Shown piece by piece: positions 8 to 64,000 of a stretch of DNA of 64,000 nucleotides. The notes beneath the pieces were generated by a model. That model saw only the letters and a list, made by a program, of their open reading frames with translations, did no database searches and had not been told where the DNA came from. Source of the stretch: Cephalotus follicularis (lineage: Eukaryota > Streptophyta > Magnoliopsida > Oxalidales > Cephalotaceae). Numbering within the stretch: position 1 is the stretch's first letter; each line of letters starts with the position of its first letter. The stretch lies in assembly GCA_001972305.1 (NCBI GenBank), contig BDDD01000986.1:186001-250000 (forward strand), read 5' to 3'. Position numbers and translations under genes: made by a program.

Positions 8-330
8 GAGCGTCAACTGTTAAGAAGGCCATGTCAGCGCTTTGACACAATGAATTCACAAGGTTGCTCAAACACTTGAAGCGACGACGCTTAAAGGAAA
101 TCGGCAGTGCTTTGTGCAAGGCGATGACAAGTTACACTAAGGCTCGATAGTTAAAGAACGAGAAATGAATAATGCACAAACCGATGATTGTTTTATTTAA
201 AGCGTCAGTGCTTTGCTAAGCATAGAATTGAAGTTTCCAAACAGAAGAAGCTTTAAGCGGGGAGATTAAAATTAAGCTGTAGCGGTAACATCTAAGCGGC
301 GACGCTTAGATCAAAACTGCCAACGCTTTG
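8..330. repeat. Phased GTCGAC-type palindrome cluster, copia A 5' LTR
   Basis: Degenerate copies of AAGCGTCGACGCTT. My estimated dyad centres are about 15, 35, 85, 105, 125, 145, 185, 206, 225, 246, 300 and 321, so most neighbours are 18-22 bp apart and gaps near 40 are about twice that. The best copies are at 79-93 and 294-307. The cluster ends about 110 bp upstream of the TATA box. Alignment of the weakest copies is approximate. Confidence 0.75.
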
Positions 331-442
331 ATCCGGCGATTGCAATCTGCTCAATCTTATCAATGCTGAATTAAAGGCAAAGTTTTCCAAATTGTTTCCA
401 ACGGCTCTCTAACATCTTCGACGGCTATTTCCTGCTAGACAC

Positions 443-450
443 TATAAATA
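443..450 (+). promoter_or_regulatory. TATA box of the copia A 5' LTR
   Basis: TATAAATA in an ACTATAAATAGGAGG context, repeated in the 3' LTR at 36176-36183. A TATAAATA-AGGAGG arrangement is typical of plant LTR promoters. Transcription would start about 30 bp downstream. Confidence 0.7.
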
Positions 451-950
451 GGAGGCTTGAATCACAACAACAACACACAACAATCAACTCTACAATACTT
501 GGTCATCAAATTTCATTCAAGAGCTTCATATTCTTTAGGAAGTGTTACTATTTTATTTTGAGTTGTTGTAAGTGAGCACATTAAGTCAATATCAAGCCTT
601 AGAGAGGTTATACAAAAACACCCAACAACTTTGTATTGCTTTCATTACCAAGGGGAGTGAACCCAAAGTGTATGCGATTGAGTTCAATCACAAAAGTTGT
701 AAGGTGCACCGAATAGCTCCTGTAAAGATATTCGAAGTTTGTATTCAATAGTGAATACTAGTGGAATCTCAAGGAGGTCTTGGGAAAAATGAAAGTAGAC
801 AAGAGTTTAGCCAAACCACTCTAAAACTGTGTTTGCAATTTCTAAATTCTATCTCTTTTCTTATAGTCATTTTTATATTGTTATTGTAAATCGAAAAAGT
901 TCATAAGTTTATACATACTACAAATCACCCCCCTATTGAAGTATTTCAAT

Positions 951-963
951 TGGTATCTAAGCA
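951..963 (+). other. Primer binding site of copia A
   Basis: TGGTATCTAAGCA lies 28 bp after the LTR end and matches the plant initiator tRNA-Met PBS (TGGTATCAGAGC) with minor changes. The spacer contains AATCACCCCCCTATTGAA, a C-rich stretch commonly seen before the PBS of Maximus/SIRE-type elements. Confidence 0.85.
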
Positions 964-1004
964 GGTAAACTTATTATTCTTAATTGTTAGAGTTTTAAAG
1001 ATCA

Positions 1005-2010
1005 ATGGCCATGAACATGAATAGTGGTGAAAGCTAAAAACATCTCTAAGCCACCATTTTTTTTATGGCAATAATTATAGCCATTGGAAGGCTAAAATGA
1101 CTATTTTTATTAATCTTTGGGACCTAATTGTTGATGATCCAAATTTGCCTACCACCACAAATGAAAGTGGTGAAATTATTTCAAAATCAAGAACTAAATA
1201 TAATAATGACGATAGAAAAAGAGTACAAATGAATGCTAAAGCAAAACATATTATTATTTGTGCTATTAATTCTAACGATTTTAATAGAGTATCCTCATGC
1301 ATTTCGGCTAAGAAAATGTGGGATAGACTTGAGGTAACCTATGAAGGTACTAATCAAGTGAAAGAGGCCAAACTTATCATGCTTGTACATGATTATGAAA
1401 TGTGTACTATGAATGAAAACGAGGATACAAAAACTATGTTTATTAGATTCACTAATATTATAAATGCTTTAGAAGCTTTGGATGAAGTTTATACTAACAG
1501 TGAAATGATGAGAAAGATTCTTAGGTGTCGACCAAGAGTATTGATGCCGAAGGTGACAGCTATTGAGGAAGCAAAAATCTCAACATTCTTCCATTGGAGG
1601 ACCTTCTAGGTTCATTAATGAACCATGAATTATCCATCATGAAAAAAGATGAAGATGAAGAGAAGAAGAAAAGAAAGAAGAAAGTGGTAGCCTTAAAGTC
1701 TTCCACGAACGAAGAAACCGAAGATGACAGTGATGAAGAGCTTGCACTCATCACGAGGAAATTCAAGAGGTTCCTTGCAAATAAGAAGAAATTTAGAGAC
1801 AAACCAAATAAGAGCAATCCTAAAAAAGGAGAGACAAGCAAGCATGAAGATATTATTTGCTATGAATACAACAAACCGGGGCACTACAAAAGTGATTGCC
1901 CAAGACTTAAAAAGAAGGAGCAAATAAAGAAAAAAAAAATCTATGCTAGCAACTTGGGAAGAAAGTGACGATTCAAGCTCCGATGGACAGGCTCAAGAAA
2001 AAGTTCCTCA
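1005..2010 (+). pseudogene. gag: Copia A gag, N-terminal and central part
   Basis: Translation from the ATG at 1005 (MAMNMNSGES) stops at once and the frame shifts, then the main frame reads YGNNYSHWKAKM and continues to about 1600. It shows the UBN2-type copia capsid: AKHIIICAIN, CISAKKMWDRLEVTYEG and MFIRFTNIINALE. After another frameshift the next block (1594-1968) has a lysine-rich stretch and a zinc knuckle reading CYEYNKPGHYKSDC, where the second cysteine of CX2CX4HX4C is replaced by tyrosine. The frame is then cut by solo LTR B at 2011. Capsid and nucleocapsid would package element RNA, but this copy is not functional. Confidence 0.85.
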
Positions 2011-3848
2011 TGTCACACCCCGTTATTTCGGTACTTACATTACGACAGGCATATATGGTGATATCAGTATTAAACATACATTCCAGCATCTCATTTGATA
2101 ATATATAACAGTATGCGGAAGCAGTCAATAAGCCAGAATATATAAAATACAAACATCCGCATGCATCCCATACTACGCGCGGTACAAGTCAACATTATCC
2201 TTAACATAAGGAATACAATAAAAGGAGGTATGATTCTTTCGTTCATTACATTTCAAAACAATACATAAACAACAACCTTAAAAGATAAACAGAAGAAGCT
2301 CTCCAAGCTTCAGCAGCAGACTCCAAATGTCCTTGCTCAATCTGTAATGGTAGGGGTTAGCCGTTGTCCTCACTTGGCTAAGCAGGAAGATAATGTATGC
2401 AGAGGAATATATGAATGCAATATGTATGACAGTTTATATCAAAATAGCATTGTAATAGCCAATATAGGAGCAATCATGCCAAATGGCCATAAACAGTTCA
2501 TATGCAATAATACCGCATAAGGGTACAATCAATTCATTCAGTCGTTTGGGTGTCACATGTCGCTAACTCCTAGCCCCCAACTGTGCACCACCTAACTATC
2601 ACCCTTACACTCCGAGAATGATAGAAAAGGTATCAGTTACTACCGACGTTGGCGGGTAGTTTCACAGTAATTCTGCAATTGCAGATAGTAGGTGATACTC
2701 TGGCCAACTCATGGCACCCAGAATCACATCCATAGCCAGTGATAACCTCCATCACCGAACTACGGCAGTAAGCATAGACAATCAATTCAATCAGTACAAT
2801 CAGTAGTAATATTACATATATAATTTATATGCAATATCGAATGTTTTCTTTAGAAACATATAACAGTTCAGTAATCGTGCATCTCATGTGAGGAAACGAT
2901 ATCAGTACAGTAGTGGTTTCCAATTCGCATATCATTTAAGTGAATAGAAGATGTGTATGTATATTCATAAGGAAGTCAGTAGCTTATTATGGAGCTAACA
3001 ACAACCTTCTAATCAAATTAGAGGTTGCATATTCATTCACTTGAGCCAAAGTTACATTCCTTATCAATTTCATTCAATCCTAGAAGATGCTAATCATAAC
3101 CATGTTAACAAAGATTAAGCATTCTCCTAGAAGACTCACTATTTGATTATAACATCACATTAACAGGTTCGGATTTGGGACTTACCAGGAGATGTTCAAA
3201 GCTTCCCTTTTTCCTTCTTTGAGCTTTAAACTCCAACCTTCCAATGCAAGTTCTCCAAATAATCCTTCAACAATTCCTTCTTCTTTTCGTGTTTAACAAC
3301 ACTCAAAATCAGTCCATGCACAGATGATATAGGATGATCAATCTGGAATTTCGCCAGAGCCTTCACCTCTCATTTACTCCATTCTCTCTCTCACATGCAT
3401 CTTTTCATTCCTTGTCATTTCTCACATTTCTCCTCTCAATGCTGCAGGTGGCAGGTCTGCAATCTTTGCAGGGAGTGCAGAGGACATGCAAGGCATCACA
3501 TTGCATGTTATGTCAGCTTAGGACACGTAGCCCCCAAGCATGCCACGCACAAGTTCAGTTGACACCTGCACAGACACATGTTCTGTCGAATTTCCAGTCG
3601 ACTGGATGCATGTGACAATCGACTGTCCACCACACGCATCAGGCAGTCGACTGTTCCCCTGTGACAGTCGGCTGTCCTGGTTTAAATTAGGGTTTCTTAA
3701 GTGGATTCCACTCAAAATTGCATCCCAATTCATCCCAAGTAAATTACCAATCACAAATTGAAAGAATTGGACAAATAATTCAATTAAAATGTATATTTAT
3801 TATAACAATGGAATTCAATATACATTAATTGAATTTGCAGTCATTACA
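2011..3848 (-). mobile_element. Solo LTR B, gypsy, same family as G and K
   Basis: It begins TGTCACACCCCG and ends ATTACA, flanked by the direct repeat CCTCA (2006-2010 and 3849-3853), so both ends are exact. No PBS, PPT or coding region lies between, which marks a solo LTR left by unequal recombination. Reverse-complemented, it starts TGTAATGACTGC and matches the K LTR (63588 onward) in the first 300 bp. Around 2550-2750 it matches the G LTR (about 42690-42890), including a short tract beginning GCTAACTCCTAGC. At 1838 bp it is shorter than G's 2.6-kb LTR. It lies minus-strand relative to its host, copia A gag. Confidence 0.9.
3556..3674. repeat. CAGTCGACTG palindrome cluster in solo LTR B
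   Basis: Copies start at 3595, 3616, 3644 and 3665 (spacings 21, 28, 21), with a weaker CAGTTGAC at 3556. The 21/27-28 alternation is the same as in K and in the first cluster of G, as expected for one family. Confidence 0.85.
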
Positions 3849-6487: not shown

Positions 6488-6518
<31 letters not shown>

Positions 6519-6527
6519 AAAGAAAAA
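6488..6527. repeat. (GA)n microsatellite with A-rich tail at the C/D junction
   Basis: About 14 GA units followed by an A-rich stretch, directly beside the truncated end of element D. On the minus strand this is CT-rich leader sequence of LTR C just downstream of its TATA box. The repeat is a plausible break or rejoining point for the deletion that removed D's 3' end. Confidence 0.75.
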
Positions 6528-11098: not shown

Positions 11099-11430
11099 AA
11101 AAAGACGTCGACGTCTTTCCCAAAGGCGTCGATGTCTTTCACGTCAGGCGTCGATGTCCAAGTCTCAGTGTCAGCGCGTTCTTCCACAGAAGGCGTCGAT
11201 GTCCATTTCTCACACGTCGACGTTCAAGGTCTGGAACCTCAAAACGATAGTGTATTATTTAATGGCGTCGACGCGTTAAAGTAGGAACCTTAGGCGTCGA
11301 CGTCTTTTACGTCAAAATCCAGGTAAGTAGCCTAGGGCATCGATGTCCTTCCATAGACGTCGATCCCTTTCGATCAGAAACAGGGCAAAACTAAAAAGCC
11401 GTCGATGTTATTCTAAAAGGCGTCGATGTC
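11099..11430. repeat. Phased GTCGAC-type palindrome cluster 1 in the D LTR
   Basis: Consensus AAGGCGTCGACGTCTTT. Dyad centres are near 11108, 11129, 11151, 11172, 11197, 11218, 11269, 11298, 11340, 11361, 11403 and 11424. Spacings are mainly 21-22, and two of the larger gaps are 42, i.e. two periods. The arms (GGC or GAC before the core) differ from those of the other families, but the core and spacing are shared. Confidence 0.85.
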
Positions 11431-11887
11431 TTTTTGAACAGTAGTCGTCTTCTACCTCAAGACTTAGTAAACAGTAACTTCTACAACCTATATACATGCA
11501 TAATAACAGGTTTTAATGGCAAGAGACCAACATGCAGATACTCCAAACATATCTAGCATACCATGGCATCAATCCAGTAACAGTATCATTTCAAGAATCA
11601 TGCGTTCTATACATTCAAAATCATAAACTATGCATGACTATCAACTCGAAATTACAGTATGACTTTCCCCTACCTTTTGTCCCAAGATAGGAACAGGAAG
11701 GTCCACCTCTTTTCGTTTCCAAACAGGTCCCAGCAGCCCCTCTAGGTTCATCCCACAGCTGCACCAGTGTTTCCAAGCTCCAAGTTCCAAGTTCAACAAT
11801 GGTGGTCAATGGAGGAAGTGTTTTCTCTTTTCACTCTCTGTTCCTTACACAGATGTCTCAGCCAAACCGGGGTTGAAGAGAGGAGGC

Positions 11888-11896
11888 GTTATATGC
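11888..11896 (-). promoter_or_regulatory. Possible TATA box of the D LTR
   Basis: GCATATAAC on the minus strand, followed downstream by a CT-rich leader-like stretch. It would place cluster 2 upstream and cluster 1 in the transcribed leader. Weak, single-motif evidence. Confidence 0.3.
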
Positions 11897-12181: not shown

Positions 12182-12293
12182 AAGGCGTCGACGTCTTTCT
12201 AAAGACGTCGATGTCATCGTCCGGATCAATGTGTAGTTACGTGAACCAATCTGCCTCAAAGGCGTCGACGTGATAATGAAGGCGTTGACGTGT
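12182..12293. repeat. Phased GTCGAC-type palindrome cluster 2 in the D LTR
   Basis: Two pairs with centres near 12189/12209 and 12266/12286, each pair 20 bp apart. Motifs read AAGGCGTCGACGTCTTT, AAGACGTCGATGTC, AAGGCGTCGACGTG and AAGGCGTTGACGTG. Confidence 0.82.
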
Positions 12294-12598: not shown

Positions 12599-15354
12599 TG
12601 TAACACCCCCGATTCGGAAGGGAGTCGTCACGGGTCCTAATCCGAGACTAAACATAACCTATCTTATATCATGACTCAATTTTATTCCTTTTTATCAGAT
12701 TATTACTTAGCGTGTATTCATATTTAACTATAAATTAAGGTTCGCCTTTATTCTTACTATCAAAATATTAACTCATCTATTATTCGAATTGCGTGATGGT
12801 CTAAAACTTAATATTCAAAATCTAAAATATTGTCTAGGACTTTATTCAGAATATGAAAACTTAAACATAATCTGGAAGGTTAAACATAAACCAAAACTTA
12901 AACATAATTCTAAGTCATAAACTGAAAGGCATGACATAGTTCAAACTTATCCGATTCCGATATCTCATTACCGAGATCCAAAGTGCATACACATATGCAA
13001 AGGTGCAAGGGGTTCATGAGGCCCACATGCCAAACAGAAAGACGTGTACGGCACTACACAATCAATCTCCAGAATCCGAATCCAAAACATATCAAAAACT
13101 AGAGTATACCCATACGCCTCTATCACAAAATTGGATCCATAAATCCACCTCATGGGATTTATTCAAAACAAAGAGAGACGTCGTAGTCAAATCACACCGC
13201 TACAGAAGTATCACGTCCCCGTACCAGGCCCACGACGTGCCTATGGTACCTCCATAGGTAGGAAATATCTCTGTGTGTATCCTTATTTCAAAAATATCGC
13301 TTTATTTCTAAAAACAATTTAAAAACGAAAACACGTTTTCTAAACATTTTATGGACATATCAAAATCATTACGTAGCATCAACTCATTTATTTTTCAACC
13401 ATAAAGAGAAGATCGTATCGTAACATATCGTAAAACATAACAAAGTCTATAAAATGAGATCATAGATTAAAACTGATTTTAGTTTGTTAAAGAGATTGTT
13501 AGAGAACGAAAACATCCGTACGTTTTCACAAAAACATATAACTGATTCATTTTAATAAAATTACCAGAGTGTGTCAAGGAACGAAGAATCCGTACAAAAA
13601 CATATTTTGATTCATTTCAGTAAGACCGAAGGAATAAGCCAAAGAGCAGATTATCCGTACGTTATTCATAAAGTAAAACTATATTTTTACCATAATAAAA
13701 ATAGTAGGAGGGAATGAAAGAACGAAAAATCCGTACCTTAAGCGATCACAAAAATAACTTTACGAATTGATCAACAATTAAAAGTCCCTCGAAGCACAAC
13801 AATCTAAAAGATACAATACATTCATACAAGGGTTCAAAATCACTTTCAAACATCGAACAGTTATTTAACAATGCTTAAACCATGCTCCAATTCATTACAA
13901 AACCAAACGGCTGACAAAACTTGAAACCAGAAATTTTTTTGGGTAATTCCAGTCGATTGCATCAAGATCCAGTCGGCTACTCAAAGGTGGCAGTCGACTG
14001 TGTGGCATAGGCAGTCGACTACTCAACCTGGGTATGAATCCAGTCGACTACTCAAAGGGTGGCAGTCGACTACTCAAACTGCGTAGCATCCAGTCGGCTG
14101 GAACTGGGGTCCAGTCGACTGTTGAAGGCAAAACAGTCGGCTGCTTTGAGAGGCAGTCGACTGTTCTGGGCGACAGAACAGCAAAAACACAGCAATTCAA
14201 CTCCAATTTTCTGTCAAACTTCCAATATCACTATACTAGATGATTTAAAACACTTACATATGACTTATGTGACTTATCAGTTGCATTTAAACATCCATAA
14301 ATCATGCAGTGGGTGAACACACTTATAGGGAGAAGCAAGTTCCAATTCTTTATATGCATAATTCCATTACTAAATTCTGTCAAATACCAATTATCATATT
14401 CAAAACCTGTTTGTAACATTACAAGACACCTCCTGACTTCCTAATAATCTCAGAAACATCAACAAATCGTGCATGGCAGGGAGTGAAACAAAACATGCTA
14501 GCAACCAACATAAACATGCAACTTGATGATATAAAATGAAACTCACTACTATGCTATATTAACAGAGAAAAACCAACCTGATTCAGTGAAGCAAAGGAGA
14601 CAATAACAGGCTCTAATCCTTGCAAATTCGGTTACCAAGAAAGAGACACACAATGGAGGCACAACAATGCATAATGGCATACATATATCACTTAGAAAGG
14701 TAATTTAGGTCATGCTAAGGCAAAAAGGAAGTCAAAATCTATTATGATAAGGAAAAGGAGCAAAATTTCGGGATTTGGGGTGAGAATTGAGGGAAAGAAA
14801 TCAGTTTTTGTGAGGGAGAAGGAAGAAAAACTGGAATGGAGGGAGAGAAATAGAAAGAAAGTCTTTTATTTGTCAAAATACAATATTTATTCCCTTTTTA
14901 AAATCCTTTTGTATTAAAAACCAATTTTGATCATTTAAAAATACCAACAACAATTATTACTTATTTATAATTACATTTTATCAATTATCCAAAGGCAATA
15001 TAGTTGGTATTATAAAGCCCAAAATAAAAGGATTTGTTTTCCAATTAAAACAATTTCACCACGTTAATAATAAAAACTAATTTAATATTTATACGAAATA
15101 TAATTCAATTAATTTGCCCTATTCACGTACATAGTCCGATCAATATTCACTAGCCTAAATTTAACGTCTTTAAGCATAAAAGCCCGAATTAATATTCACC
15201 AACCATATAACAAAATAGAATTCCAAACAAAATATACACTCGAGACTCGATGTATTATAATATCATATAATAAAATAAAATTTCAAAATATGCACACCAA
15301 CATAAAATCAAACAATAATCCGAAAATAGGCACACGAACAAACGGGGTATTACA
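12599..15354 (-). repeat. 3' LTR of E (left copy)
   Basis: It is bounded by TGTAACACCCCC and GTATTACA, and matches the right copy along its length apart from scattered substitutions and one extra unit in the palindrome cluster. At 13000-13260 it is near-identical to 17230-17510. Confidence 0.88.
13950..14162. repeat. CAGTCGACTG palindrome cluster, E left LTR (10 units)
   Basis: Unit starts are 13950, 13970, 13991, 14012, 14041, 14063, 14091, 14112, 14134 and 14153, giving spacings 20, 21, 21, 29, 22, 28, 21, 22 and 19. Most units are CAGTCGACT; several are half-site variants CAGTCGGCT. The matching cluster in the right LTR has nine units. Confidence 0.9.
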
Positions 15355-15370
15355 TCTTTCCCCCCTTAAA
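15355..15370 (-). other. Polypurine tract of E
   Basis: The minus strand reads TTTAAGGGGGGAAAGA next to the 3' LTR. It is the site where plus-strand priming would occur. Confidence 0.8.
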
Positions 15371-16823: not shown

Positions 16824-19091
16824 AACTGTAACACCCCCAATTCGGAAGGGAGTCGTCACGGTTCCTAATCCCAGACTAAACATAACCTATCTTATATCAT
16901 GACTCAATTTTATTCCTTTTTATCAGATTATTACTTAGCGTGTATTCATATTTAACTATATATCAAGGTTCGCCTTTATTCTTACTATCAAAATATTAAC
17001 TCATCTATTATTCAAATTGCGTGATGGTCTAAAACTTAATATTCAAAATCTAAAATATTGTCTAAGACTTTATTCATAATATGAAAACTTAAACATAATC
17101 TGGAAGGTTAAACATAAACCAAAACTTAAACATAATTCTAAGTCATAAACTGAAAGGCATGACATAGTTCAAACTTATCCGATTCCGATATCTCATTACC
17201 GAGATCCAAAGTGCATACACATATGCAAAGGTGCAAGGGGTTCATGAGGCCCACATGCCAAACAGAAAAACGTGTACGGCACTACACAATCAATCTCCAG
17301 AATCCGAATCCAAAACATATCAAAAACTAGAGTATACCCATACGTCTCTATCACAAAATCGAATCCATAAATCCACCTCATGGGATTTATTCAAAACCAA
17401 GAGAGACGTCGTAGTCAAATCACACCGCTACGGAAGTGTCACGTCCCCGTGCCAGGTCCACGATGTGCCTATGGTACCTCCAGAGGTAGGAAATATCTCT
17501 GTGTGTATCCTTATTTCAAAAATATTGCTTTATTTCTAAAAACGATTTAAAAACGAAAACACATTTTCTAAACATTTTATGGACATATCAAAATCATTAC
17601 GTTGCATCAACTCATTTAATTTTCAACCATAAAGAGAAGATCGTATCGTAACATATCGTAAAACATAACAAAGTCTATAAAACGAGATCATAGATTAAAA
17701 CTGATTTTAGTTTGTTAAAGAGATAGTCAGTGTAACACCCCCGGAACGGCGAGAGTCATCACAGGGTCATATCATACATAACATAACTTAACAAACTCAT
17801 AAGATTACTTTATTAGCCAAAAACAGCCAGAAATGTGGCGATCTTCTCATAACATTAAAACTTAACAATTTAACATATGATGTAGTTGCGAAAAACTCAA
17901 AACAAAAATTCAGTTCCAATTTAAAAACAGAAAACATAATAATCCATGTTTCTGACCACTAAACATAACATAAGGATCACTCTCCTAAGGATCCAACACA
18001 TAGGGTGGTCGTCACTCAATCACACTTTCCCCTGCTGCTCCTGAAAACCTGCCGGATGGAAACAAAAAAGCGGCTGAGGAAACCTCAGTACGGATAAGGG
18101 AAAAATAAAAACAGTAAACGATAATTGAAAACATTAATATTTCAATAATAATGTAACAGAAATCTTAAATAGTTTAAAACAGTTTAATCATATTCAATAA
18201 CAATTCATATCTTTTGAAACAATTACGGAACATTTCAAAAACATCATAAATCATAGTTCATAAAAACATACTGAGCCATATTCATATCACATATCATAAA
18301 TTTTTGGCAAGGGAGGCGCTAATTCCACATGCCCACTAGAATTGAAGTGTACGGCACTACACAAGTCAATTCTCACATACACATATCCGATCACACCTCG
18401 GACCATATATCTGAATTCACCTCAGATCACATAAACTAGAATCGATTCATACGCCTCTATCACACATAGCGGATCCACAAATCCACCTCATGGGATTCGT
18501 TCATACACTCAAAGACGCCGTAGTCTAATCACACTGCTACGGAAGTGTCACGTCCCCGTGCCAGGCCTACGACGTGCCTATGGTACACCCCATAGGTGGG
18601 TACAATACTCAGTATTTATTTAAAAAATAATTGATTTATCAAAATCAATTTAAAACACATAAAATATGTTCTCACAAAACATATTCAGAAAACCGCTCAC
18701 AACGGTATCATAACATGTCGTATCATAACATATCATATGTATAAAGTCGGAATCATTTCAATATCAAACCAACTTTAATTGCGAAACATGTCAAAGTCAT
18801 AAAACATCGTTGATTTCATAAACGAAGATGCTTAGTAAAATAGTTTTCAGTTCGAATATCAGATAACCAAGGAACAGAAAATCCGTACCTTATGCGCTCA
18901 CAAAGTACTTACGAATAGACAATTTAAACGGAATCCACTTGATGCACAACAATCTAAAAAGACATTCAAAAATCATACGTGTAAGAGTCTAAGACACATC
19001 AGAAGCATTAAACAGTGTTTGGAAAAGATTCGGATCGATTCGGTGATCAAACGAATCAAAACAGTTGAAAACAATACATTCCAGGGCAAAA

Positions 19092-19297
19092 CAGTCGACT
19101 AAAACAGGGCTCCAGTCGACTGGTGAAGCAAGACAGTCCACTATTAAAAAGGTCCAGTCGACTACTCAATTAAAAGTGCAGGCAGTCGACTGTGTTCATC
19201 CCTCCAGTCGACTACACAACCAAGGCAGTCGACTGCATTCATGTGGAAGTCGGCTGCACAACCATTCCAGCCGACTGTCCACAGAGACAGCCGACTG
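19092..19297. repeat. CAGTCGACTG palindrome cluster, F left LTR (10 units)
   Basis: Starts are 19092, 19113, 19134, 19155, 19183, 19205, 19226, 19247, 19268 and 19288, giving spacings 21, 21, 21, 28, 22, 21, 21, 21 and 20. The last three units are half-site variants (GTCGGC or GCCGAC). The series is identical in the right LTR. Confidence 0.92.
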
Positions 19298-19964
19298 TTC
19301 TGGGCGACAGAATAGTTGGAAATTCGACGATTTGCTACTAAAAATGGTTCAAATGGTTTCTACATTAAACTAGGGACATATGGACATAAACATATGATCA
19401 TATATGACTTGCAGGTGACATAAAAACACGGATTTGACAAGGGAACAACCTGATAGTGATTTAACTTACAAAAAGAAAGCAAGAAGACAATGGATGTATA
19501 TGTCCAGATTCTGTCTCTAATCGATTACAGATGTTATAAAACAAGTTTGTGACACATCTATGAGTATAAAACGTGGTTACAATATCACTAACACAATGAC
19601 AACACATTTAGGCAGGAATCAATGACCCAAAGACACCAAGAGCATAAAAATTCAAAGTATGCCATTGAAACAAAACTATCATTAAAGGGGACGAATTAAC
19701 TGACCTGTAGTGATTCCGAGAACACAAAAACAGTAGAAGAAACACTAGCACACACTCACAATTCGGCTGTGAACAAAAACAGAGGAAGAAGAATACAAAA
19801 CCATAGCATACTTAGACATACATAGCAAACTAAGAGAATTTAATCCAAGGAAACAACTAAAGGATTGAATTTACCTCTTCTGACTTTGAAGAATGAATTA
19901 CACAGTAGCTTGTTACACACTAACAAGGCAGAATTTGCAGTGGCTTGTAAGAAAGATGAGGGCA

Positions 19965-19977
19965 ACATATAAAATGG
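19965..19977 (-). promoter_or_regulatory. Possible TATA box of the F LTR
   Basis: The minus strand reads CCATTTTATATGT, repeated in the right LTR at about 27532. If used, the palindrome cluster would lie about 670 bp downstream, in the transcribed leader rather than upstream. Confidence 0.35.
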
Positions 19978-20448
19978 CAAAGGTACTCTAAGAAAGGAGA
20001 AAGAAGGAGACACAATTTGACAAAAGGGGGAAGAAAGGAGGATTTTCTGGAATTTGAAATAGGAAAAGAGGGACTTAGCATGTGATATTGATGGTGGGAA
20101 GAAGGAATCATGGGAAAGTAGGAGGAAAGTAGGAAGAAAGTAGGAGGAAATTGATAAAATAGGGAAAAAGGAAAATAAAGAATTAATAAAAAAAGGAATT
20201 AAGGAATTTTAAATTAAAAGATAAATAATTTGTTTTTAATAAAATGATTTTGGATTATAATAAAATAAATAAAACCCAAACCCAACATAGCATAACATAC
20301 CCAAAATTTCGGACTGGTAACAGTCAGCTCAATTCACATAAACCCAAATCATAGGGCAACCGGACTTTTAAAATTAAACAAAATTAAAAGCCCGAAAACA
20401 CATATAAAATCCGAAAAAAAAACATTTACGAACGAGCAGGGTATTACC

Positions 20449-25293: not shown

Positions 25294-25296
25294 ATC

Positions 25297-28018
25297 TGTA
25301 ACACCCCCAGAACGGCGGGAGTCGTCACAGGGTCATATCATACATAACATAACTTAACAAACTCATAAGATTACTTTATTAGCCAAAAACAGCCAGAAAT
25401 GTGGCGGTCTTCTCATAACATTAAAACTTAACAATTTAACATATGATGTAGTTGCGGAAAACTCAAAACAAAAATTCAGTTCCAATTTAAAAACAGAAAA
25501 CATTATAATCCATGTTTCCGACCACTAAACATAACATAAGGATCACTCTCCTAAGGATCCAACACATAGGGTGGTCGTCACTCAATCACACTTTCCCCTG
25601 CTGCTCCTGAAAACCTGCCGCATGGAAACAAAAACGCGGCTGAGGAAACCTCAGTACGGATAAGGGAAAAATAAAAACAGTAAACGATAATTTAAAACAT
25701 TAATATTTCAATAATAATGTAACAGAAATCTTAAACAGTTTAAAACAGTTTAATCATATTCAATAACAATTGCATATCTTTCGGAACAATTACGGAACAT
25801 TTCAAAAACATCATAAATCATAGTTCATAAAAACATACTGAGCCATATTCATATCACATATCATAAATTTTTGGCAAGGGAGGCGCTAATTCCACATGCC
25901 CACTAGAATTGAAGTGTACGGCACTACACAAGTCAATTCTCACATACACATATCCGATCACACCTCGGACCATATATCTGAATTCACCTCTGATCACATA
26001 AACTAGAATCGATTCATACACCTCTATCACACATAACGGATCCACAAATCAACCTCATGGGATTCGTTCATACACTCAAAGATGCCGTAGTCTAATCACA
26101 CTACTACGGAAGTGTCACGTCCCCGTGCCAGGCCTACGACGTGCCTATGGTACGCCCCATAGGTGGGTACAATACTCAGTATTTATTTCAAAAATAATTG
26201 ATTTATCAAAATCAATTTAAAACACAAAAAATATGTTCTCACACAACATATTCAGAAAACCGCTCACAACGGTATCATAACATATCGTATCATAACATAT
26301 CATATGTATAAAGTCGGAATCATTTCAATATCAAACCAACTTTAATTGCAAAACATGTCAAAGTCATAAAACATCGTTGATTTCATAAACGAAGATGCTT
26401 AGTAAAACAGTTTTCAGTTCGAATATCAGATTACCAAGGAACAGAAAAACCGTACCTTATGCGCTCACAAAGTACTTACGAATAGACAATTTAAACGGAA
26501 TCCACTTGATGCACAACAATCTAAAAAGAAATTCAAAAATCATACGTGTAAGAGTCTAAGACACATCAGAAGCATTAAACAGTGTTTGGAAAAGATTCAG
26601 ATCGATTCGGTGATCAAACGAATCAAAAAAGTTGAAAACAGTACATTCCAGGGCAAAACAGTCGACTAAAACAGGGCTCCAGTCGACTGGGGAAGCAAGA
26701 CAATCCACTATTAAAAAGGTCCAGTCGACTACTCAATTAAAAGTACAGGCAGTCGACTGTGTTCATCCCTCCAGTCGACTACACAACCAAGGCAGTCGAC
26801 TGCATTCATGTGGCAGTCGGCTACACAACCATTCCAGCCGACTGTCCACAGAGACAGCCGACTGTTCTGGGCGACAGAACAGTTGGAATTCGATGATTTT
26901 CTACTGAAAATGGTTCAAATGGCTTCTACATTAAACTAGGGACATATGGACATAAACATATGATCATATATGACTTGCAGGTGACATAAAAACACAGATT
27001 TGACAAGGAAACAACCTGATAGTGATTTAACTTACAAAAATAAAGCAAGAAGACAATGGATGTATATGTCCAGATTCTATCCCTAATCGATTACAGATGT
27101 TATAAAACAAGTTTGTGACACATCTATGAGTATAAAATGTGTTAACAATATCACTAACACAATGACAACACATTTAGGCAGGAATCAATGACCCAAAGAC
27201 ACCAAGAGCATAAAAACTCAAAGTATGCCATTGAAACAAAACTATCATTAAAGGGGACGAATTAACTGACCTGTAGTGATTCCCAGAACACAAAAACAGT
27301 AGAAGAAACACTAGCACACACTCACAATTCGGCTGTGAACAAAAACAGAGGAAGAAGAATACAAAACCATAGCATACTTAGACATACATAGCAAACTAAG
27401 AGAATTTAATCCAAGGAAACAACTAAAGGATTGAATTTACCTCTTCTGACTTTGAAGAATGAATTACACAGCAGCTTGTTACACACTAACAAGGCAGAAT
27501 TTGCAGTGGCTTGTAAGAAAGATGAGGGCAACATATAAAATGGCAAAGGTACTCTAAGAAAGGAGAAAGAAGGAGACACAATTTGACAAAAAGGGGGAAG
27601 AAAGGAGGATTTTCTGGAATTTGAAATAGGAAAAGAGGGACTTAGCATGTGATATTGATGGTGGGAAGAAGGAATCATGGGAAAGTAGGAGGAAAGTAGG
27701 AAGAAAGTGGAGGAAATTGATAAAATAGGGAAAAAGGAAAATAAAGAATTATTAAAAAAAGGAATTAAGGAATTTTAAATTAAAAGATAAATAATTTGTT
27801 TTTAATAAAATGATTTTGGATTATAATAAAATAAATAAAACCCAAACCCAACATAGCATAACATACCCAAAATTTCGGACTGGTAACAGTCAGCTCAATT
27901 CACAGAAACCCAAATCATAGGGCAACCGGATTTTTAAAATTAAACAAAATTAAAAGCCCGAAAACACATATAAAATCCGAAAAAAAAAAATACATTTACA
28001 AACGAGCAGGGTATTACA
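25297..28018 (-). repeat. 5' LTR of F (right copy)
   Basis: It runs from TGTAACACCCCC to GTATTACA, 2722 bp, collinear with 17731-20448. Confidence 0.92.
26659..26864. repeat. CAGTCGACTG palindrome cluster, F right LTR (10 units)
   Basis: Starts are 26659, 26680, 26701, 26722, 26750, 26772, 26793, 26814, 26835 and 26855. Spacings 21, 21, 21, 28, 22, 21, 21, 21 and 20 are identical to the left copy. Confidence 0.92.
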
Positions 28019-28470: not shown

Positions 28471-28662
28471 AAGTCGACTGCATCAAGATCTAGTCGGCTA
28501 CTCAAAGGTGGCAGTCGACTGTGTGGCATAGGCAGTCGACTACTCAACCTGGGTATGAGTCCAGTCGACTACTCAAATTGGGTAGCATCCAGTCAGCTGG
28601 AACAGGGGTCCAGTCGACTGTTGAAGGCAAAACAGTCGGCTGCTTTGAGAGGCAGTCAATTG
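28471..28662. repeat. CAGTCGACTG palindrome cluster, E right LTR (9 units)
   Basis: Starts are 28471, 28491, 28512, 28533, 28562, 28590, 28611, 28633 and 28653; spacings 20, 21, 21, 29, 28, 21, 22 and 20. One 22-bp unit present in the left LTR (14041-14062) is absent here. Confidence 0.9.
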
Positions 28663-33460: not shown

Positions 33461-33560
33461 AAGTGCCGGCGCTTAAATAATAAGCGTCAGCAGTTAACAC
33501 TACTTATTTTAGGGCTTTCTTTACACTAAGCCACGATGCTATATGTTAAGCGTTGACAGT
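33461..33560. repeat. GTCGAC-type palindromes in the pol-aORF spacer of copia A
   Basis: Two pairs with centres near 33467/33488 and 33534/33554 (21 and 20 bp apart), reading AAGTGCCGGCGCTTA, TAAGCGTCAGCAGTTA, AAGCCACGATGCTA and TAAGCGTTGACAGTTA. This cluster is internal, not in an LTR, yet keeps the LTR motif and spacing. Confidence 0.72.
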
Positions 33561-39539: not shown

Positions 39540-39700
39540 TTATTGTTCTAAGCGTTGACGCTTTTCTATAAGCGCTAACTCTTGGACGGCTAAGCATCGA
39601 CGCCTTTCTATAAGGCATTGACGCTTTGAAGGCTAGTTAAACAAACAAATTTAGTTTAAGCTTTGACGCTTTTCCAAAAGACGTCGACGCTTTGAAGGCT
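39540..39700. repeat. GTCGAC-type palindrome cluster, copia I LTR
   Basis: Motifs include TAAGCGTTGACGCTTTT, AAGCATCGACGCCTT, AAGGCATTGACGCTTTG, AAGCTTTGACGCTTTT and AAGACGTCGACGCTTTG. Most neighbours are about 20-23 bp apart. In the minus orientation of the LTR they lie about 300 bp upstream of the TATA position seen in the right copy. Confidence 0.72.
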
Positions 39701-40967: not shown

Positions 40968-41092
40968 CAGCCGACTGTCATAGGGTAACAGTTGACTGCC
41001 TGGTTTATGGAAGAACAGCCGACTGTCGCAAGGCAACAGTCAACTAGTTGGGTTAAGTAAGGTCAGTCGACTGTCACATGATATAGTCGACT
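40968..41092. repeat. CAGTCGACTG palindrome cluster 1, G 5' LTR
   Basis: Starts are 40968, 40989, 41016, 41037, 41064 and 41084 (spacings 21, 27, 21, 27, 20). The spacing series is identical in the 3' LTR (48294 onward), though individual motifs have diverged. Confidence 0.9.
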
Positions 41093-42004: not shown

Positions 42005-42117
42005 CAATCGACTATTTAATCCCAGCAATCGATTGCTCAATGTAAACATTCGACTGTTAAGGACAAACAGCCGACTGCCTAATGAAAAGAGCCAGCTATT
42101 CTTATGAACAGCCAACT
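42005..42117. repeat. CAGTCGACTG palindrome cluster 2, G 5' LTR (decayed)
   Basis: Starts are 42005, 42026, 42047, 42068, 42089 and 42109 (21, 21, 21, 21, 20). The first four read CAATCGACTA, CAATCGATTG, CATTCGACTG and CAGCCGACTG. The 3' LTR has perfect CAGTCGACTG at all four. Confidence 0.9.
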
Positions 42118-48293: not shown

Positions 48294-48419
48294 CAGTAGA
48301 CTGTCACAGTGTAACAGTCAACTGCCTGGTCTATGGAAGAACAGCCGATTGTCGCAGGGCAACAGTCGACTGCTTAGGTTAAGTAAGGACAGTCGACTGT
48401 CACAGGATGCAGTCGACTG
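48294..48419. repeat. CAGTCGACTG palindrome cluster 1, G 3' LTR
   Basis: Starts are 48294, 48315, 48342, 48363, 48390 and 48410 (21, 27, 21, 27, 20). The last three are perfect or near-perfect palindromes. Confidence 0.92.
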
Positions 48420-49330: not shown

Positions 49331-49444
49331 CAGTCGACTGTTTAATCCCAACAGTCGACTGCTCAATGTAAACAGTCGACTGTTAAGGACAAACAGTCGA
49401 CTGCCTAATGAAAACAGCTGGCTATTCTTAGGAACAGCCGACTG
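49331..49444. repeat. CAGTCGACTG palindrome cluster 2, G 3' LTR (four perfect units)
   Basis: Starts are 49331, 49352, 49373, 49394, 49415 and 49435, spacing 21, 21, 21, 21 and 20. The first four are perfect CAGTCGACTG; the last two are CAGCTGGCT and CAGCCGACT. It is the cleanest cluster in the window and ends about 50 bp before a TATA box. Confidence 0.95.
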
Positions 49445-56419: not shown

Positions 56420-56755
56420 AAGCGTCGGCACTTTCTTCTAAGTGTCGCCGCTTATGGGCTTTTTCTGAGTTCTTCAACTCCCTCCTTGACTAAAGCGCTG
56501 ACGTTTCTCCTTCAAGCATCGCCGCTCTCAGGTCTCGTCCAATTCAACTGAAACACTTGACTCTAAAGCGTCGAAGCTTACATTTAGAGCGTCATCGGTT
56601 GCACCAAGCATCGCAGCTTTCATACAAGCATCGTCAGTTAGAGGAATTTGTCCAAATTGAAAATGCCCTGGTTTTAACCGATGTTAGAAGAGGTCCAAGC
56701 GTCGAAGGTTAACTGTCAAAGAGTCACCGCTTTACCTGGAACCGTCGACGCTTAA
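56420..56755. repeat. Phased GTCGAC-type palindrome cluster, LTR H
   Basis: Pairs such as AAGCGTCGGCACTTT / AAGTGTCGCCGCTTA (centres 56426 and 56446) and AAGCGCTGACGTTT / AAGCATCGCCGCTC (56499 and 56520), then AAGCGTCGAAGCTTA, GAGCGTCATCGGTT, AAGCATCGCAGCTTT and, near 56750, GTCGACGCTTA. Same AAGC-core-GCTT form as copia A and I, although H is a different LTR family. Confidence 0.78.
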
Positions 56756-57703: not shown

Positions 57704-59536
57704 TTATTCCAATTTTAATATATAACAACCATAACACGTGGTCTTTAGTGCTTATGTTTCCTCCCACTATTCTAATCGTATCCCATACCCCCATATGGAA
57801 CTCAAAAATTCCAACTCCTAGTGGGGATTGGAATCTATCGCAATCATATTATGGCCTCAGCTAGGGTATGACAGACCATAATATATCCAATGGGTAGGCT
57901 GTCTTGCCAATTTGCATACAATACAAGATCCAATCATAAAATTCGGCCTCATATTCAATATAACCTTAGCTAGGGCATAACAAACCATTAGAATCACGAT
58001 AAGTCAAACACCCATAATTTTCATTGGAATGTGCTAGTTTTAACACCCACACGTAGGCGTGTCCAAGTGCTAAAATGTAGCCACCCTTTGTGGTGCCCAA
58101 CACCGACGTTGACATAGTATCCCACAGGTTACCAACCTCAGCTAGGGCATGACAAACTAATAACCCAGGTACACCACTCAACGAAAATTGTAGAAGGCCA
58201 TGGGGAACCACTCCAAGGGTTCCTATGTTCAGACTTATTATTTAGTTGAGGGAATTTGCGGTCTCATATTTTATTTACCAAGCCTTTAATTAATTCATTG
58301 GTTTCATTACCCAATTCCAATTAATTACGCCTTTGCATTCATGACGTGTATTTGGACTATCCATCTTATGCACCTTGGACTTATTTCTAAAATAAATCAA
58401 TGGAATGGCAAGGACATCACTATAAGTAATGACTTGACCCCAAAGTCACTACTCGGTCTTACTAGGTGCTATGAATTAATTTATCTATTACATTTGGAAC
58501 CATGCATTCATGGCCTTCAAAAGTCTTGTACTTCTTTTCTCCTCTCCTCCATCTGTCATTGCAAAGTCTTTATTTACAAAAAGAACTTTACATTTCAAAA
58601 TAGAAATTACATACAAAATTTCAAGGAGAAATTTCGTAAGGGGAAAAAAATGGTGCACGCAGTCACCTTATTACAGACCAATGAATATAAGATCAATTAA
58701 ATCATCCACAAAAGAAAACCAAAACTAGGTCTTGTCCTTATAAGCCATCCATTGTGCATAAGAGTATAAAACCATATCTAATATAACTTCAAAACAATAC
58801 ACAGATGCCTCTCATAATAACAAATTTTAAAATTTAATATAAGAGATTGTTTATAGGTCAAACTTCCACTAAATCAAGTAATGATTAATATCCTATAAGT
58901 GCCTTAATGCAAAAATTCCAAAATTTTAACAACAATGTAATATTATGCCTAAGCGTCGACGCCTTAAGATAAAGTGTCAATGCTTAATGCCAAAAGCGTC
59001 AACAGTTTTTAAACAAAATCTCGGCATGCGTCGACGCTTATATGCCTAAGCGTCGACGGTTTAAAATCAATGCTGATAAAGTGTCGACGCTTACTGCCTA
59101 AGCGTCGACATTTTACAACAAACTGTCAACGCTTAAGACATTAAACAACACTTAACTTAAGCACTTATATAAGCGTCAATGCCTTAACCACAAAGCGTCA
59201 ACGCTCAAGAATAAGCGTTGATGCTTAACAGTACTGCAGTAACACACCATGCAACACAACTGTAGTTTTTCAAGAATTGGACTTAGAGATCACCAGTATT
59301 TGCACTCAGCAAAACATTTAGCAAACTCAAACTGCACTATGCAAGTTCCAAACATAAGTGCAAATCATGATGTAATATAATCTCCAAGACAATATCACAA
59401 GAGAAATCCAATTTCATTCAAAATTACACCAAGGCACTTAAGGATGTATTTGACTATACAAACACACAGCAAGTAATTAAACTTCCAATCAGTCATTATC
59501 TCATGCATCATAATTCAACTATGTATGATGTGGTTA
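57704..59536 (-). other. Long leader of copia I between PBS and gag
   Basis: About 1.8 kb without coding sequence, long for a copia leader. It contains three copies of a CCTYAGCTAGGGYATRAC motif (about 57863, 57963 and 58137) and a palindrome cluster (58951-59228). The order of A/T-rich and G/C-rich stretches resembles the leader of J after 62677, though similarity is low. Confidence 0.55.
58951..59228. repeat. Phased GTCGAC-type palindrome cluster in the copia I leader
   Basis: Centres are near 58957, 58978, 59000, 59032, 59054, 59085, 59106, 59127, 59177, 59199 and 59219. Spacings are 21, 22, 32, 22, 31, 21, 21, 50, 22 and 20. Several copies keep the whole core, such as GCGTCGACGCTTA (59029) and AAGTGTCGACGCTTA (59079). 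The cluster lies outside any LTR. Confidence 0.88.
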
Positions 59537-61492: not shown

Positions 61493-61820
61493 GGGCGTCG
61501 ACGCCATGGAGAGCATGCATCAATGCCATGTCTAGTTGAGTTGCTGGGCGTTAACACAAATTTCATGCATTGACGCAGTTAAACCCAGTGGCTTTAAATG
61601 TCGATGCCATTAGAAGCATGCGTCGATGCCATAACTAGAATAAGTCGCTGGACGTTAAAGCCATGGAGAGCATGCATTGACGTTTTAAAAACAGTAGCTT
61701 ACACGTTGACGCTGTGATGTTTTATGCATCAACGCGAAGAAAAATGAGACTATCCGTCGGTTTCATCTTATCGTTGGCGTTGACGCCTAGATAATATGAA
61801 ACGCATGGCGTTGATGCCAT
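61493..61820. repeat. GTCGAC-type palindrome cluster, J LTR
   Basis: Motifs include GGGCGTCGACGCCATGG, GCATCAATGCC, GCATTGACGC, GCGTCGATGCC, GGCGTTGACGCC and GGCGTTGATGCC. Measured neighbours are 21 bp (61499 to 61520) and 19 bp (61552 to 61571) apart. A further pair at about 61990-62025 reads GCGTTGACACC and GGCGTTGACGCC. Arms are GGC/GCC rather than AAGC/GCTT. Confidence 0.75.
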
Positions 61821-61890
61821 GACATGTTCATGTGCGGGTTTTACCAACTTAAGAGGAGTTGGTGAGAGAGAGAAAGTTAAAAAGTCAAAA

Positions 61891-61900
61891 GGATAAATAC
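61891..61900 (+). promoter_or_regulatory. Possible TATA box of the J LTR
   Basis: GGATAAATAC, followed about 60 bp later by a CT-rich leader-like stretch. The main palindrome cluster would lie just upstream. Weak. Confidence 0.35.
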
Positions 61901-62663
61901 TTTATGATAATAAGACAAAAGCAAGAGAAGCTTCCATAACACACTTCCTATTTCTCTCTCTTCTCTACTGTCTCACTTCTTCCTGCTGCTAGCGTACGCG
62001 TTGACACCCAGTTCCTAGGCGTTGACGCCAATATCGCCTGGTTCGATTTTGTAGCCATTTTCAACACTCCTTTCACTACTCAAAGGTCATTATATGTGGA
62101 GATAACTTGCACACTGCAACTTATCTTTATCTAGAGTGATTTAGTGTAGGGAAAACACTTGGCCTTCATCCTTGGATCCCCCCTTTCGTGGCTTGTGGAG
62201 GAGCTTGGAGCTTTGGGAATAAAGAGTAGAGGGAGCTTGTCTTGAAGGAAGGAGTCTTCACCATTGGTAAGAATCTCTTCTTCCTCTCCCTTGTGGCAAC
62301 GAGTTGCCTTTTGGTGGTTTGTTTCTTATCCCTCAGGGTTGTGAATGTTTGGGTTTGGGTTGATTGGACTTTTGGCTAGGGTTAGTGTGTTTCCTTATGA
62401 GCCAATCTTTGGAGTCCATTTCTAGGGTTTACGACAACCCTACCGTTTCGACCCATTTTGCCTTATGCTTTGTTTTGTTTTCGGTTTGATTGATTGTTCA
62501 ATTAGGTTTCCTTGGCACTCATTGGGACAATTCGAACTTAGCTTAGGGCATCCCATTGCTTGGGCATTAATCAATTGTATGAACTTTAAAATTAATCGAC
62601 CATAAACCCTAAAGTTCGGATTGCATGTTTTTCCTGCTGCGTGTTTGAGCCATTCCCAACAAC

Positions 62664-62676
62664 TGGTATCATAGCC
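62664..62676 (+). other. Primer binding site of copia J
   Basis: TGGTATCATAGCC, one change from the initiator tRNA-Met PBS (TGGTATCAGAGCC), 2 bp after the LTR. Confidence 0.87.
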
Positions 62677-63587
62677 ACCTAATTGACTTCAATTAGACCT
62701 CAATTTGTTGTTTAGTGGATTGGAGATTGCATATGTGCTTTGGCCAATTTGCAGTAGCCATACGTTTTGTGGGAGTTGCTTATTGGTCACACTAATGAAA
62801 TAGACGAACCATTGAATGCTAGATTGTTACGTGTTTATTCAATTATATATCAGTTATATTTTTGAATTTCTTATGCATGCTGGTAGGCTTGGGACTCATC
62901 TTAGCTTTGTGTGTTTCCTTGTGTGGATGATTTAATTTCTTTGTTACATTCATGGAATTCAATCGGTCTGTAATAAGGCTGCCTACATGCGCTATATTTA
63001 TTTTCTTATTCTTTTTCTTAGAGTAGAATTCTCTTCTCCCTCAATTTTATTTCTTTTTATTTAAATGTACTAAGGATGTAATTTCAAGAAAGGAGACCAA
63101 TGGAGATTGAAGAGAAGATCAAGAAGATTGCAAGGCCAGTTGGCTCACGTGATCACTTATAGCTTATGTTCCAAGTCAGGCCACTTTTAGGGTGCATGAG
63201 ATGGATGTTTTATTTTTTAACAATCCAAACACGTCCAAGCATGTTAAGCCATCCAAATGGATTGGAAGATTAAAATTAATATAAAATGGCTTTGGTAATT
63301 ATTTAATAAAATTGATGAGACCAAATCCTTCCAACTTGCAAATAATAAGTCCATAAGCGGTGGGGCATATGGCTGCCCTATTGTTGGCCTTCCACAATCA
63401 TCATTGAATGGTGTGGACATATTAGGGATAGCAACAGCCCTCCGCTGAGGTCCCCCGCATGACAATTTCTATTCAATTTCAGTGTGAGGTACACTAGAAG
63501 GAAATAACCATGTTTTGGTTCTCTGACACGCTCCTGGGCGGGTATCAAAATCGGTTTATTTCTTTGAGGGTTATGGGTCTGACTTAT
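62677..63587 (+). other. Leader of copia J, noncoding
   Basis: No credible gag start or long reading frame. A T-rich stretch (62990-63070) precedes a purine-rich segment around 63090-63140. I see nothing else in it. Confidence 0.5.
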
Positions 63588-64000
63588 TGTAATAACCGCA
63601 AATTCAATTCGCGTACATTGTAATAATGATTAATAAAATGTGCACTTATTTGAATTTAATGTCACATTATTACAATTTGTGATTGGTAATTGCTTGGGAT
63701 GAATTGGGATGCAATTTGGTGGAAATCCAACTTAAGAAACCCTAAATTAACCCTTGACAGCCGACTACCACAGGGGGGAAGTCGACTGCCTGGTTTATGA
63801 GGGGCCAGCCGACTGCCACAGGGGAGCAGTCGACTGCCTGATGCGTATTGTGGACTGTCGACTGGCCAATGAATCCAGTCGACTGGAATTACGACAGAAC
63901 ATGTGTCTGTGCATGTGTGAAACAGGACAGGGGCATGGCATGCAAGGGGACAGGTGTCGTGGGCATGCACCAGCTGCCATGACATGCAAGGAAAGCCCTT
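63588..64000 (+). mobile_element. Gypsy LTR K (start), same family as B and G
   Basis: It begins TGTAATAACCGC after CTTAT (63583-63587, the presumed TSD) and matches solo LTR B reverse-complemented over its full visible length, including GGGATGAATTGGGATGCAAT. It also matches the start of the G LTR more distantly. Whether it is a solo LTR or a whole element cannot be seen. Confidence 0.85.
63758..63886. repeat. CAGTCGACTG palindrome cluster, LTR K
   Basis: Starts are 63758, 63779, 63806, 63827, 63855 and 63876 (21, 27, 21, 28, 21). The alternation is the same as in G cluster 1 and in B. Confidence 0.92.

Follow-up and report, generated by a model that had tools for sequence, protein, structure and literature searches.

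The 64,000-nucleotide stretch of Cephalotus follicularis DNA analyzed here (the window) holds gypsy and copia retrotransposons with clusters of short palindromes around the core GTCGAC. This locus raises the question of how such regularly spaced words came to be shared by two superfamilies, and what they might do there.

Spacing of GTCGAC in the window and in the genome

GTCGAC occurs 55 times in the window, as compared to a mean of 5.03 and a highest count of 10 in 100 shuffles. At lag 21, 11 exact pairs were detected versus 0 in all 100 shuffles, and with one mismatch allowed there were 36 pairs (shuffle mean 0.31, maximum 3). Among the 64 palindromic 6-mers scored in the window, none besides GTCGAC exceeded 2 pairs at 20-22 bp. 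The same spacing peak was found in 20 loci of 10 kb outside the window (200 kb in total, 8% N), which contain 113 exact GTCGAC sites, and a scan of all 6-mers in these loci showed that 15 of the 16 words commonest at lag 20-22 are parts of two palindromes or of their common variants. In the whole genome (1.58 Gb), 166,339 exact GTCGAC pairs lie at lag 20-22, as compared to 1,742 for the reversed pattern, and 262,153 lie across lags 15-45. The original prediction of clustering at 20-22 bp, with an autocorrelation peak above shuffled sequence and clusters beyond a few degraded window copies, was thus borne out, the peak being sharp with exact as well as one-mismatch words.

The lag breakdown was taken from the first 100 genome pairs listed, all from one contig: 76 pairs lie 19-23 bp apart, 10 at 27-28 bp, 3 at 30-32 bp, 9 at 40-42 bp and 2 at 45 bp, and none at 15-18, 24-26 or 33-39 bp. 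The palindromes had been proposed to be helically phased, and this holds locally; unbroken phasing does not, since steps of 27-29 bp are common and do not correspond to an integral number of 10.5-bp turns.

Two dialects and their host elements

The arrays split by flanking base into an A dialect, AGTCGACT, and a C dialect, CGTCGACG, and the two hardly mix. Exact neighbour pairs genome-wide amount to 107,493 for A-A and 14,867 for C-C, as compared to 153 mixed A-C pairs; T-T pairs number 120, and G-flanked GGTCGACC pairs at 20-22 bp are absent from the 1.58 Gb. In a set of 45 arrays, from which arrays with fewer than three sites and non-exact sites flanked by neither A..T nor C..G were left out, the 180 adjacent site pairs comprised 109 AA, 39 CC, 1 AC and 31 with an unclassed site. 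Letter profiles round the sites are symmetrised by construction; the commonest letters, read without symmetrising, give CAGTCGACTG for the A dialect and AAAGGCGTCGACGTCTTT for the C dialect, both of which are therefore near-palindromes.

Each dialect tolerates its own variants. Grouping by similarity reduces the 45 arrays to 25 groups, the largest with 10 members, and with the longest array of each group as representative, A-dialect sites read GTCGAC in 20/45, GCCGAC in 19/45 and ATCGAC in 2/45 cases, C-dialect sites GCCGAC in 1/56 and ATCGAC in 25/56 (Fisher p 6e-10 for the GCCGAC/ATCGAC contrast); part of this contrast might be mutational, because loss of the outer CpG yields ATCGAC and an older GCCGAC could yield GTCGAC by a C-to-T change. 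Spacers are just somewhat more alike within arrays (0.317 for A, 0.359 for C) than between arrays (0.282 and 0.275), which argues against an origin as simple tandem copies of recent date. A tandem-repeat finder reported parts of five array stretches, and a simple tandem-repeat reading was rejected.

Table 1. Arrays, LTRs and associated pol segments in the window
Feature	Position	Strand	Remark
A-dialect array, 4 sites, inside LTR 2010-3848 (minus)	3597..3672	-	LTR homologous to element K
pol of gypsy element D	6236-9520	-	primer site at 9756
C-dialect array (AAGRCGTCGAYGTCTT), presumed 5' LTR region of gypsy element D	11107..11449	-	
Second C-dialect array, 4 sites, same stretch of gypsy element D	12187..12289	-	
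AB (gypsy-type) LTR	12599..15360	-	read from match pattern
A-dialect array, 10 sites, AB LTR	13952..14161	-	
Other AB LTR copy	16827-17730 + 28019-29860		split by element C; read from match pattern
3' LTR, chromodomain gypsy element C	17731..20447	-	5' LTR at 25297-28017
A-dialect array, 10 sites, element C 3' LTR	19094..19295	-	
A-dialect array, 9 sites, element C 5' LTR	26661..26862	-	
A-dialect array, 7 sites, second AB LTR	28473..28640	-	
Three weak C-dialect sites, copia A, downstream of pol pieces, before 3' LTR match (35734)	33465..33557	+	2-mismatch scan
C-dialect array, AAGCGTCGACGCTT type, partly decayed	39554..39688	.	
A-dialect array by start of gypsy element K 5' LTR	40970..41091	+	
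Decayed A-dialect array, middle of K 5' LTR	42007..42075	+	
A-dialect array by start of gypsy element K 3' LTR	48296..48417	+	
A-dialect array, middle of K 3' LTR	49333..49442	+	TATAAA ~50 bp downstream
pol pieces of copia I	51133-54010	-	
C-dialect array, AAGCGTCGACGCTT type, copia I side, 10 sites, partly decayed	56424..56749	.	2-mismatch scan
C-dialect array (AAGCGTCGACGCTT), 11 sites, 5' side of copia I	58955..59222	.	2-mismatch scan
Degenerate C-dialect sites, GGCGTCGACGCC type, element earlier called copia J	61497..62026	.	before primer-site-like sequence (62664, one mismatch)
A-dialect array in K-like LTR continuing past window end	63760..63883	+	

In the window, the pol domains of C and K, both hosts of A-dialect arrays, are of gypsy type, and C also has a chromodomain. 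The arrays at 11107-12284 lie on the 5' side of gypsy element D and yet use the C dialect, which is also seen near copia; no LTR pair was found for D, and the placement of its array in an LTR is presumptive. Sequence comparison within the window matched no copia-side C array to any gypsy array.

With dialects assigned to pol by proximity, the A dialect lies mainly near gypsy pol, and the C dialect adjoins copia pol (loci L009, L027 and L028) as well as the gypsy pol lineages D/L025, L021 and L022; both superfamilies appear to carry the C dialect. In the pol tree, for which 17 rows formed the set and 3 with fewer than 150 columns were dropped, the C-dialect pair D/L025 stands apart from the A-dialect pairs K/L023 and C/L012. 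L024 groups with D/L025, but its nearer array is of the A dialect, and L019 falls with K in the tree although the array seen there is of the C dialect. Furthermore, A arrays lie next to copia pol at L020, and gypsy pol is present at L013 and L026 with no array in the 10 kb covered at each.

The sharing might go back to a single ancestral LTR segment that was inherited or exchanged and now has no function. Flanks had been described as unrelated between families, which fails for the A-dialect LTRs at 2010-3848, 40817-43409/48143-50736 and 63583-63991, since these align at about 64-73%; sharing of the CA..TG arms is thus partly due to common descent, as the joining of the 45 arrays into groups would also allow. 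Against this reading, palindromes persist while adjacent columns diverge, the two dialects are unlike in their flanks, in the length of their arms and in the variants they allow, and the C dialect seems to occur in both superfamilies. Hence we regard functionless descent as the least probable of the explanations considered.

Conservation and a possible role in protein binding

Between element families, 404/451 palindrome columns were identical as compared to 2118/3335 other columns, and between paired LTRs of the same element the values were 497/540 and 3377/3534, with four pairs per comparison, each counted in both marking directions, columns marked by motif match and pairwise alignments that may be motif-anchored. 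Within elements, palindromes thus decay as fast as other columns or faster, the faster decay being nominally significant for K only (3/4 tests) and not for C or AB. Since the sites are conserved between families and not between LTRs of one element, they would be held during replication and released after insertion, a pattern pointing to selection in active elements.

Given the observed arrays, spacing, dialects and conservation, we propose, with a probability of about 0.6, that the arrays are cis-regulatory clusters of sites for putative dimer-binding, sequence-specific proteins, with one specificity per dialect. We infer protein binding, dimers, activation and two proteins from sequence, the dimers from the symmetry of the sites alone. 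The putative dimeric binders would most likely be activators or anti-silencing factors needed for LTR retrotransposon transcription, and repeats of 20-22 bp would set neighbouring dimers next to each other at a distance of about two turns. Two related specificities are envisaged, one for CAGTCGACTG (A dialect) and the other for AAGRCGTCGAYGYCTT (C dialect); each array would use a single dialect, and related elements could differ in theirs. The original suggestion of a dimeric-protein array, with related proteins reading family arms, is in line with near-symmetric sites, non-mixing dialects, dialect-specific variants and conservation between families, but the binders themselves are putative. 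A more far-reaching version is offered tentatively and seems to us doubtful on balance: two related dimeric proteins, host- or TE-borne, might each drive a cross-superfamily guild of LTR retrotransposons via a non-mixing dialect, with lineages switching channel. If true, this two-channel code would comprise some 120,000 pairs of same-dialect sites in a single plant genome.

If the proposed protein binding is right, a few sequence-specific DNA-binding proteins would control numerous families of retrotransposons in this large plant genome, and removal of one protein should therefore shut down or free entire guilds at once. Moreover, it would become testable why particular elements fill some genomes, the arrays would serve as ready bait for the protein, and between-family conservation versus post-insertion decay would provide a cheap test in any genome.

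An RNA-level role was also considered, namely that neighbouring palindromes pair in the transcript as hairpins leading to small-RNA silencing or RNA dimerisation. RNA folds gave z of -4.96 to -9.85 for 4 of 8 arrays, and palindrome regions of maize Sireviruses are small-RNA hotspots according to the available portions of PMC5311732 and PMC10760457. However, the other four arrays gave z of only -1.07 to -2.69, and repeated palindromes pair with each other irrespective of purpose. Additionally, in window elements whose orientation is known or inferred, sense-strand variants comprised 5 that are G-U compatible (GTCGGC and GTCGAT) versus 22 that break pairing (GCCGAC and ATCGAC), a count in which AB, C and K are each represented by two LTRs, so that its sites are not independent. 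We consider this role unlikely. The palindromes were also considered as integration sites, a reading that was set aside: the accessible part of PMC6911290, on target sites, has just a slight palindrome preference and no GTCGAC word.

Relation to described motif systems

The claim that no described class matches the arrays is incorrect: the part of PMC2829016 available describes, for Sireviruses, palindromic repeated motifs (RM) located upstream of the LTR promoter. These are likewise palindromic, CpG-bearing and clustered in LTRs in many copies, with element-specific arms and a proposed regulatory role, and the Vitis Sirevirus RM, CGGTCGACCG, includes GTCGAC (PMC2829016). By contrast, the RM core is given there as CGG-CCG, with one exception (Tnd-1), and as Sirevirus-specific, whereas here an A or C flanks the core GTCGAC, and the arrays occur in gypsy plus copia at 20-22 bp spacing; the hosts C and K are gypsy-type and not Ty1/copia Sireviruses. 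RM clusters have at least 8 dyad-symmetric copies in the LTR or linker, as do the AB LTR (10) and the element C LTRs (10 and 9), the other window arrays having fewer sites per cluster. RM clusters also lie shortly upstream of a conserved TATA box. TATAAA counts in successive 50-bp bins outside the arrays were 0, 4, 2, 5, 3, 9, 4, 5, 1, 2, 1 and 2 (~3.2 expected per bin), with no excess just outside the arrays, so that among window elements a promoter-proximal place is seen for the K mid-LTR array only. Extra RM copies in the linker between pol and 3' LTR may have a counterpart in the three weak sites of copia A. In maize, the palindrome CACCGGACNNNGTCCGGTG is common to copia and Helitron elements, and two unrelated kinds of element in one genome have the same palindrome as their most frequent structured motif; a second dialect, gypsy carriers and fixed spacing are not reported in the available portion of PMC10760457. 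Among the open-licence literature matches listed for motif or palindrome arrays in LTRs, no title or abstract describes the pattern.

The DRE/CRT cold and drought element has the core RCCGAC and is bound by CBF/DREB proteins, which are thought to bind as monomers; barley HvCBF2 reportedly prefers GTCGAC, a preference for which the literature matches gave no confirmation. The A dialect resembles it in tolerating GCCGAC, which holds the CCGAC core, but the site here is symmetric and RCCGAC is not its main form, GTCGAC being as common or commoner (20 versus 19 of 45 A sites) and GCCGAC occurring in 1 of 56 C sites. Stress-response boxes of the Tnt1/Tto1 type are repeated transcription-factor sites in the LTR U3, in few copies and in single families, with no word known to be shared across superfamilies. 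The kind of motif is thus already known from Sireviruses and from the maize cross-element palindrome (PMC2829016, PMC10760457, each as far as available), and what is new here is the sharing by gypsy and copia, the mutual exclusion of the two dialects, the fixed spacing and the scale.

Lastly, the Arabidopsis VANDAL/VANC system resembles the arrays in its clusters of short motifs within noncoding TE sequence, density-set binding and paralogue-specific targets, as given in the part of PMC5735166 available, but it concerns DNA transposons and the non-palindromic motif YAGTATTAY; here, LTR pairs and retrotransposon domains were found instead of Mutator-like elements. By analogy, the dialects might be protein subfamilies, given that VANC binds short clustered motifs and related VANCs have different targets (PMC5735166, same part). 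Cytosines in CG/CHG context make up 404/456 in sites and 339/1180 in spacers, as palindromes tend to yield. This is improbable, since a single element-encoded protein serving both superfamilies would need to act in trans, and the 20 unspliced window ORFs of at least 150 aa showed retrotransposon-type domains or nothing, with no motif-binding protein or extra DNA-binding ORF seen. Pieces of MatK mark the source as a land plant that carries plastid-like inserts.

Extent and spacing of the GTCGAC arrays

Autocorrelation analysis of the window against shuffled sequence detected an excess of GTCGAC pairs at a lag of 21 bp, both for exact pairs (11, as compared to 0 in 100 shuffles) and with one mismatch permitted (36, as compared to a shuffle mean of 0.31), and GTCGAC itself was found 55 times against a shuffle mean of 5.03. 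GTCGAC recurs with the same spacing in 20 other 10-kb loci sampled from the genome (L009-L028), where a motif-free scan recognized 15 of the 16 6-mers most repeated at 20-22 bp as fragments of two palindromes or their common variants, AACGAT being the sole exception. Across the 1.58-Gb assembly, the window included, CAGTCGACTG is present in 197,377 copies (939 for the reversed word), and exact GTCGAC pairs number 166,339 at 20-22 bp and 262,153 at 15-45 bp (1,742 and 4,308, respectively, for the reversed control pattern). The palindrome pattern originally predicted for LTR retrotransposons of the window is thus confirmed and extends to the whole genome. Spacings were discrete in the first 100 of the listed 15-45 bp pairs, all from contig C1: 76 at 19-23 bp, 10 at 27-28 bp, 3 at 30-32 bp, 9 at 40-42 bp and 2 at 45 bp. 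The helical phasing that was part of the same prediction holds strictly for neighbors at 20-22 and 40-42 bp only, since a step of 27-29 bp corresponds to approximately 2.6-2.8 turns.

Two dialects and their carriers

The base pair flanking the core splits the arrays into an A dialect (AGTCGACT) and a C dialect (CGTCGACG). Exact pairs genome-wide amounted to 107,493 for A-A (control 336), 14,867 for C-C (control 31), 120 for T-T and 0 for G-G (control 2), and mixed A-C pairs to 82 and 71 for the two orders. Among adjacent sites in 45 arrays from 264 kb, which form 25 similarity groups, 109 pairs were AA, 39 CC and 1 AC, while 31 included an unclassed site. The commonest letters at in-phase sites, unsymmetrised, were CAGTCGACTG for A (124 distinct sites) and AAAGGCGTCGACGTCTTT for C (87 distinct sites); symmetrised profiles were informative out to about 5-6 bp and 8-9 bp from the dyad, respectively.

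The dialects also differ in tolerated variants, tallied from one representative of each array similarity group: the 45 A sites comprised GTCGAC (20), GCCGAC (19) and others (6), and the 56 C sites ATCGAC (25), GTCGAC (17), GTCAAC (11) and others (3). ATCGAC might be partly mutational, since loss of the outer CpG yields the same form. GCCGAC of the A dialect cannot be derived from GTCGAC by deamination; the opposite change would be a deamination. Asymmetric variants lie mostly in one orientation per array in the window and the other loci; on the sense strand of the window elements, GCCGAC was found 14 times and GTCGGC 4 times.

Dialects were assigned to pol genes by proximity, which is imperfect. 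The A dialect was found within or close to gypsy elements that represent at least two pol groups (K/L023 and C/L012/L010b), and the C dialect close to copia pol (L009, L027, L028) as well as gypsy pol (D/L025, L021, L022). The pol of L024 groups with D/L025, yet an A array lies about 0.7 kb from it and a C array is more distant; L019, which is mostly N, groups with K but has a C array at a distance of approximately 2 kb. At L020 a copia pol is adjoined by A arrays, perhaps due to nesting. L013 and L026 have gypsy pol and no array in the 10 kb examined at each. Each K LTR carries two arrays, one near its start and one near its middle.

Conservation, possible function and relation to known systems

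Conservation was compared in four LTR pairs per class, each counted in both marking directions. When LTRs from different elements were compared, 404/451 cells in palindrome columns and 2118/3335 in the remaining columns were identical, a contrast that is suggestive but short of proof because the motif match marks the columns and the alignment itself may be anchored by the motif. The three K-like comparisons, each significant in both directions (p 0.0042 or below), are sounder than C versus AB, which aligns poorly outside the sites (53%). Between the two LTRs of the same element, the values were 497/540 and 3377/3534. Palindromes decayed faster in the K pair (84-87% versus 93-94% for the rest; three of four tests nominally significant), and no significant difference between palindrome and other columns was detected for the C and AB pairs. 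The simplest reading, suggested by these alignments, is that the sites are needed by working elements and lost from dead copies.

As the likeliest mode of action, dimeric DNA-binding proteins would control LTR activity through these sites, which are near-symmetric, lie next to one another and seem to be retained by selection in elements that replicate; the dimer-site reading of the original prediction is plausible but unproven. The difference in tolerated variants would fit two related binding specificities, one per dialect, and site density and spacing would favor cooperative binding. GCCGAC of the A dialect resembles the DRE/CRT core, which is a lead only. The barley protein HvCBF2 may prefer GTCGAC, for which the literature passages searched gave no confirmation.

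The initial view that no described class matches has to be corrected: the closest described counterpart is the Sirevirus RM boxes, which according to PMC2829016 do not occur in classic copia elements and, with the exception of one element, have a CGG-CCG core. The arrays described here do not qualify as Sirevirus RM boxes, because their core is GTCGAC and gypsy elements are among the carriers, although they may work in the same way. Maize Sirevirus palindromes are reported to attract small RNAs (PMC5311732, PMC10760457). One maize palindrome is also reported as the commonest structured motif in copia as well as Helitron elements (PMC10760457); the sharing of a palindrome between different types of element is therefore not entirely without precedent. 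VANC targets (PMC5735166) offer a second model of related proteins with diverged motif arrays. What is new is that the motif is shared between gypsy and copia, in two dialects that almost exclude each other, at a fixed spacing and on this scale.

Element layout of the window

The window is a nested stack of LTR retrotransposons.

Elements and minor features of the window (window coordinates)
Feature	Position	Strand	Remark
Gypsy element C	17731-28017	minus	chromodomain
Element AB, one LTR	12599-15360		
Element AB, other LTR	16827-17730 plus 28019-29860		interrupted by C
Gypsy element K	40817-50736	plus	
Gypsy element D, pol	6236-9520	minus	
Copia pieces	1031-1609, 31299-32782, 51133-54010		
Second phrase, GTACGGATTTTTCGTTC-like	13550-13970, 18700-19100	minus	downstream of AB and C arrays; several copies in AB
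84-bp duplication	23292-23459		near-perfect (97%), in gypsy C coding region
254-aa open frame	23607-24371	plus	antisense to gypsy C coding pieces; no match in Pfam search
Unrelated tandem repeats	37165-38277		37-bp unit x4.9, 169-bp unit x2.9, 20-bp unit (CCGAGGTCTGCCTTCAAGTA) x7.7

Elsewhere in the assembly, plastid matK fragments, which identify the genome as that of a land plant, occur at G000:C3366:15329-15577 and three other places, three of the four with a stop, as in plastid DNA inserts.
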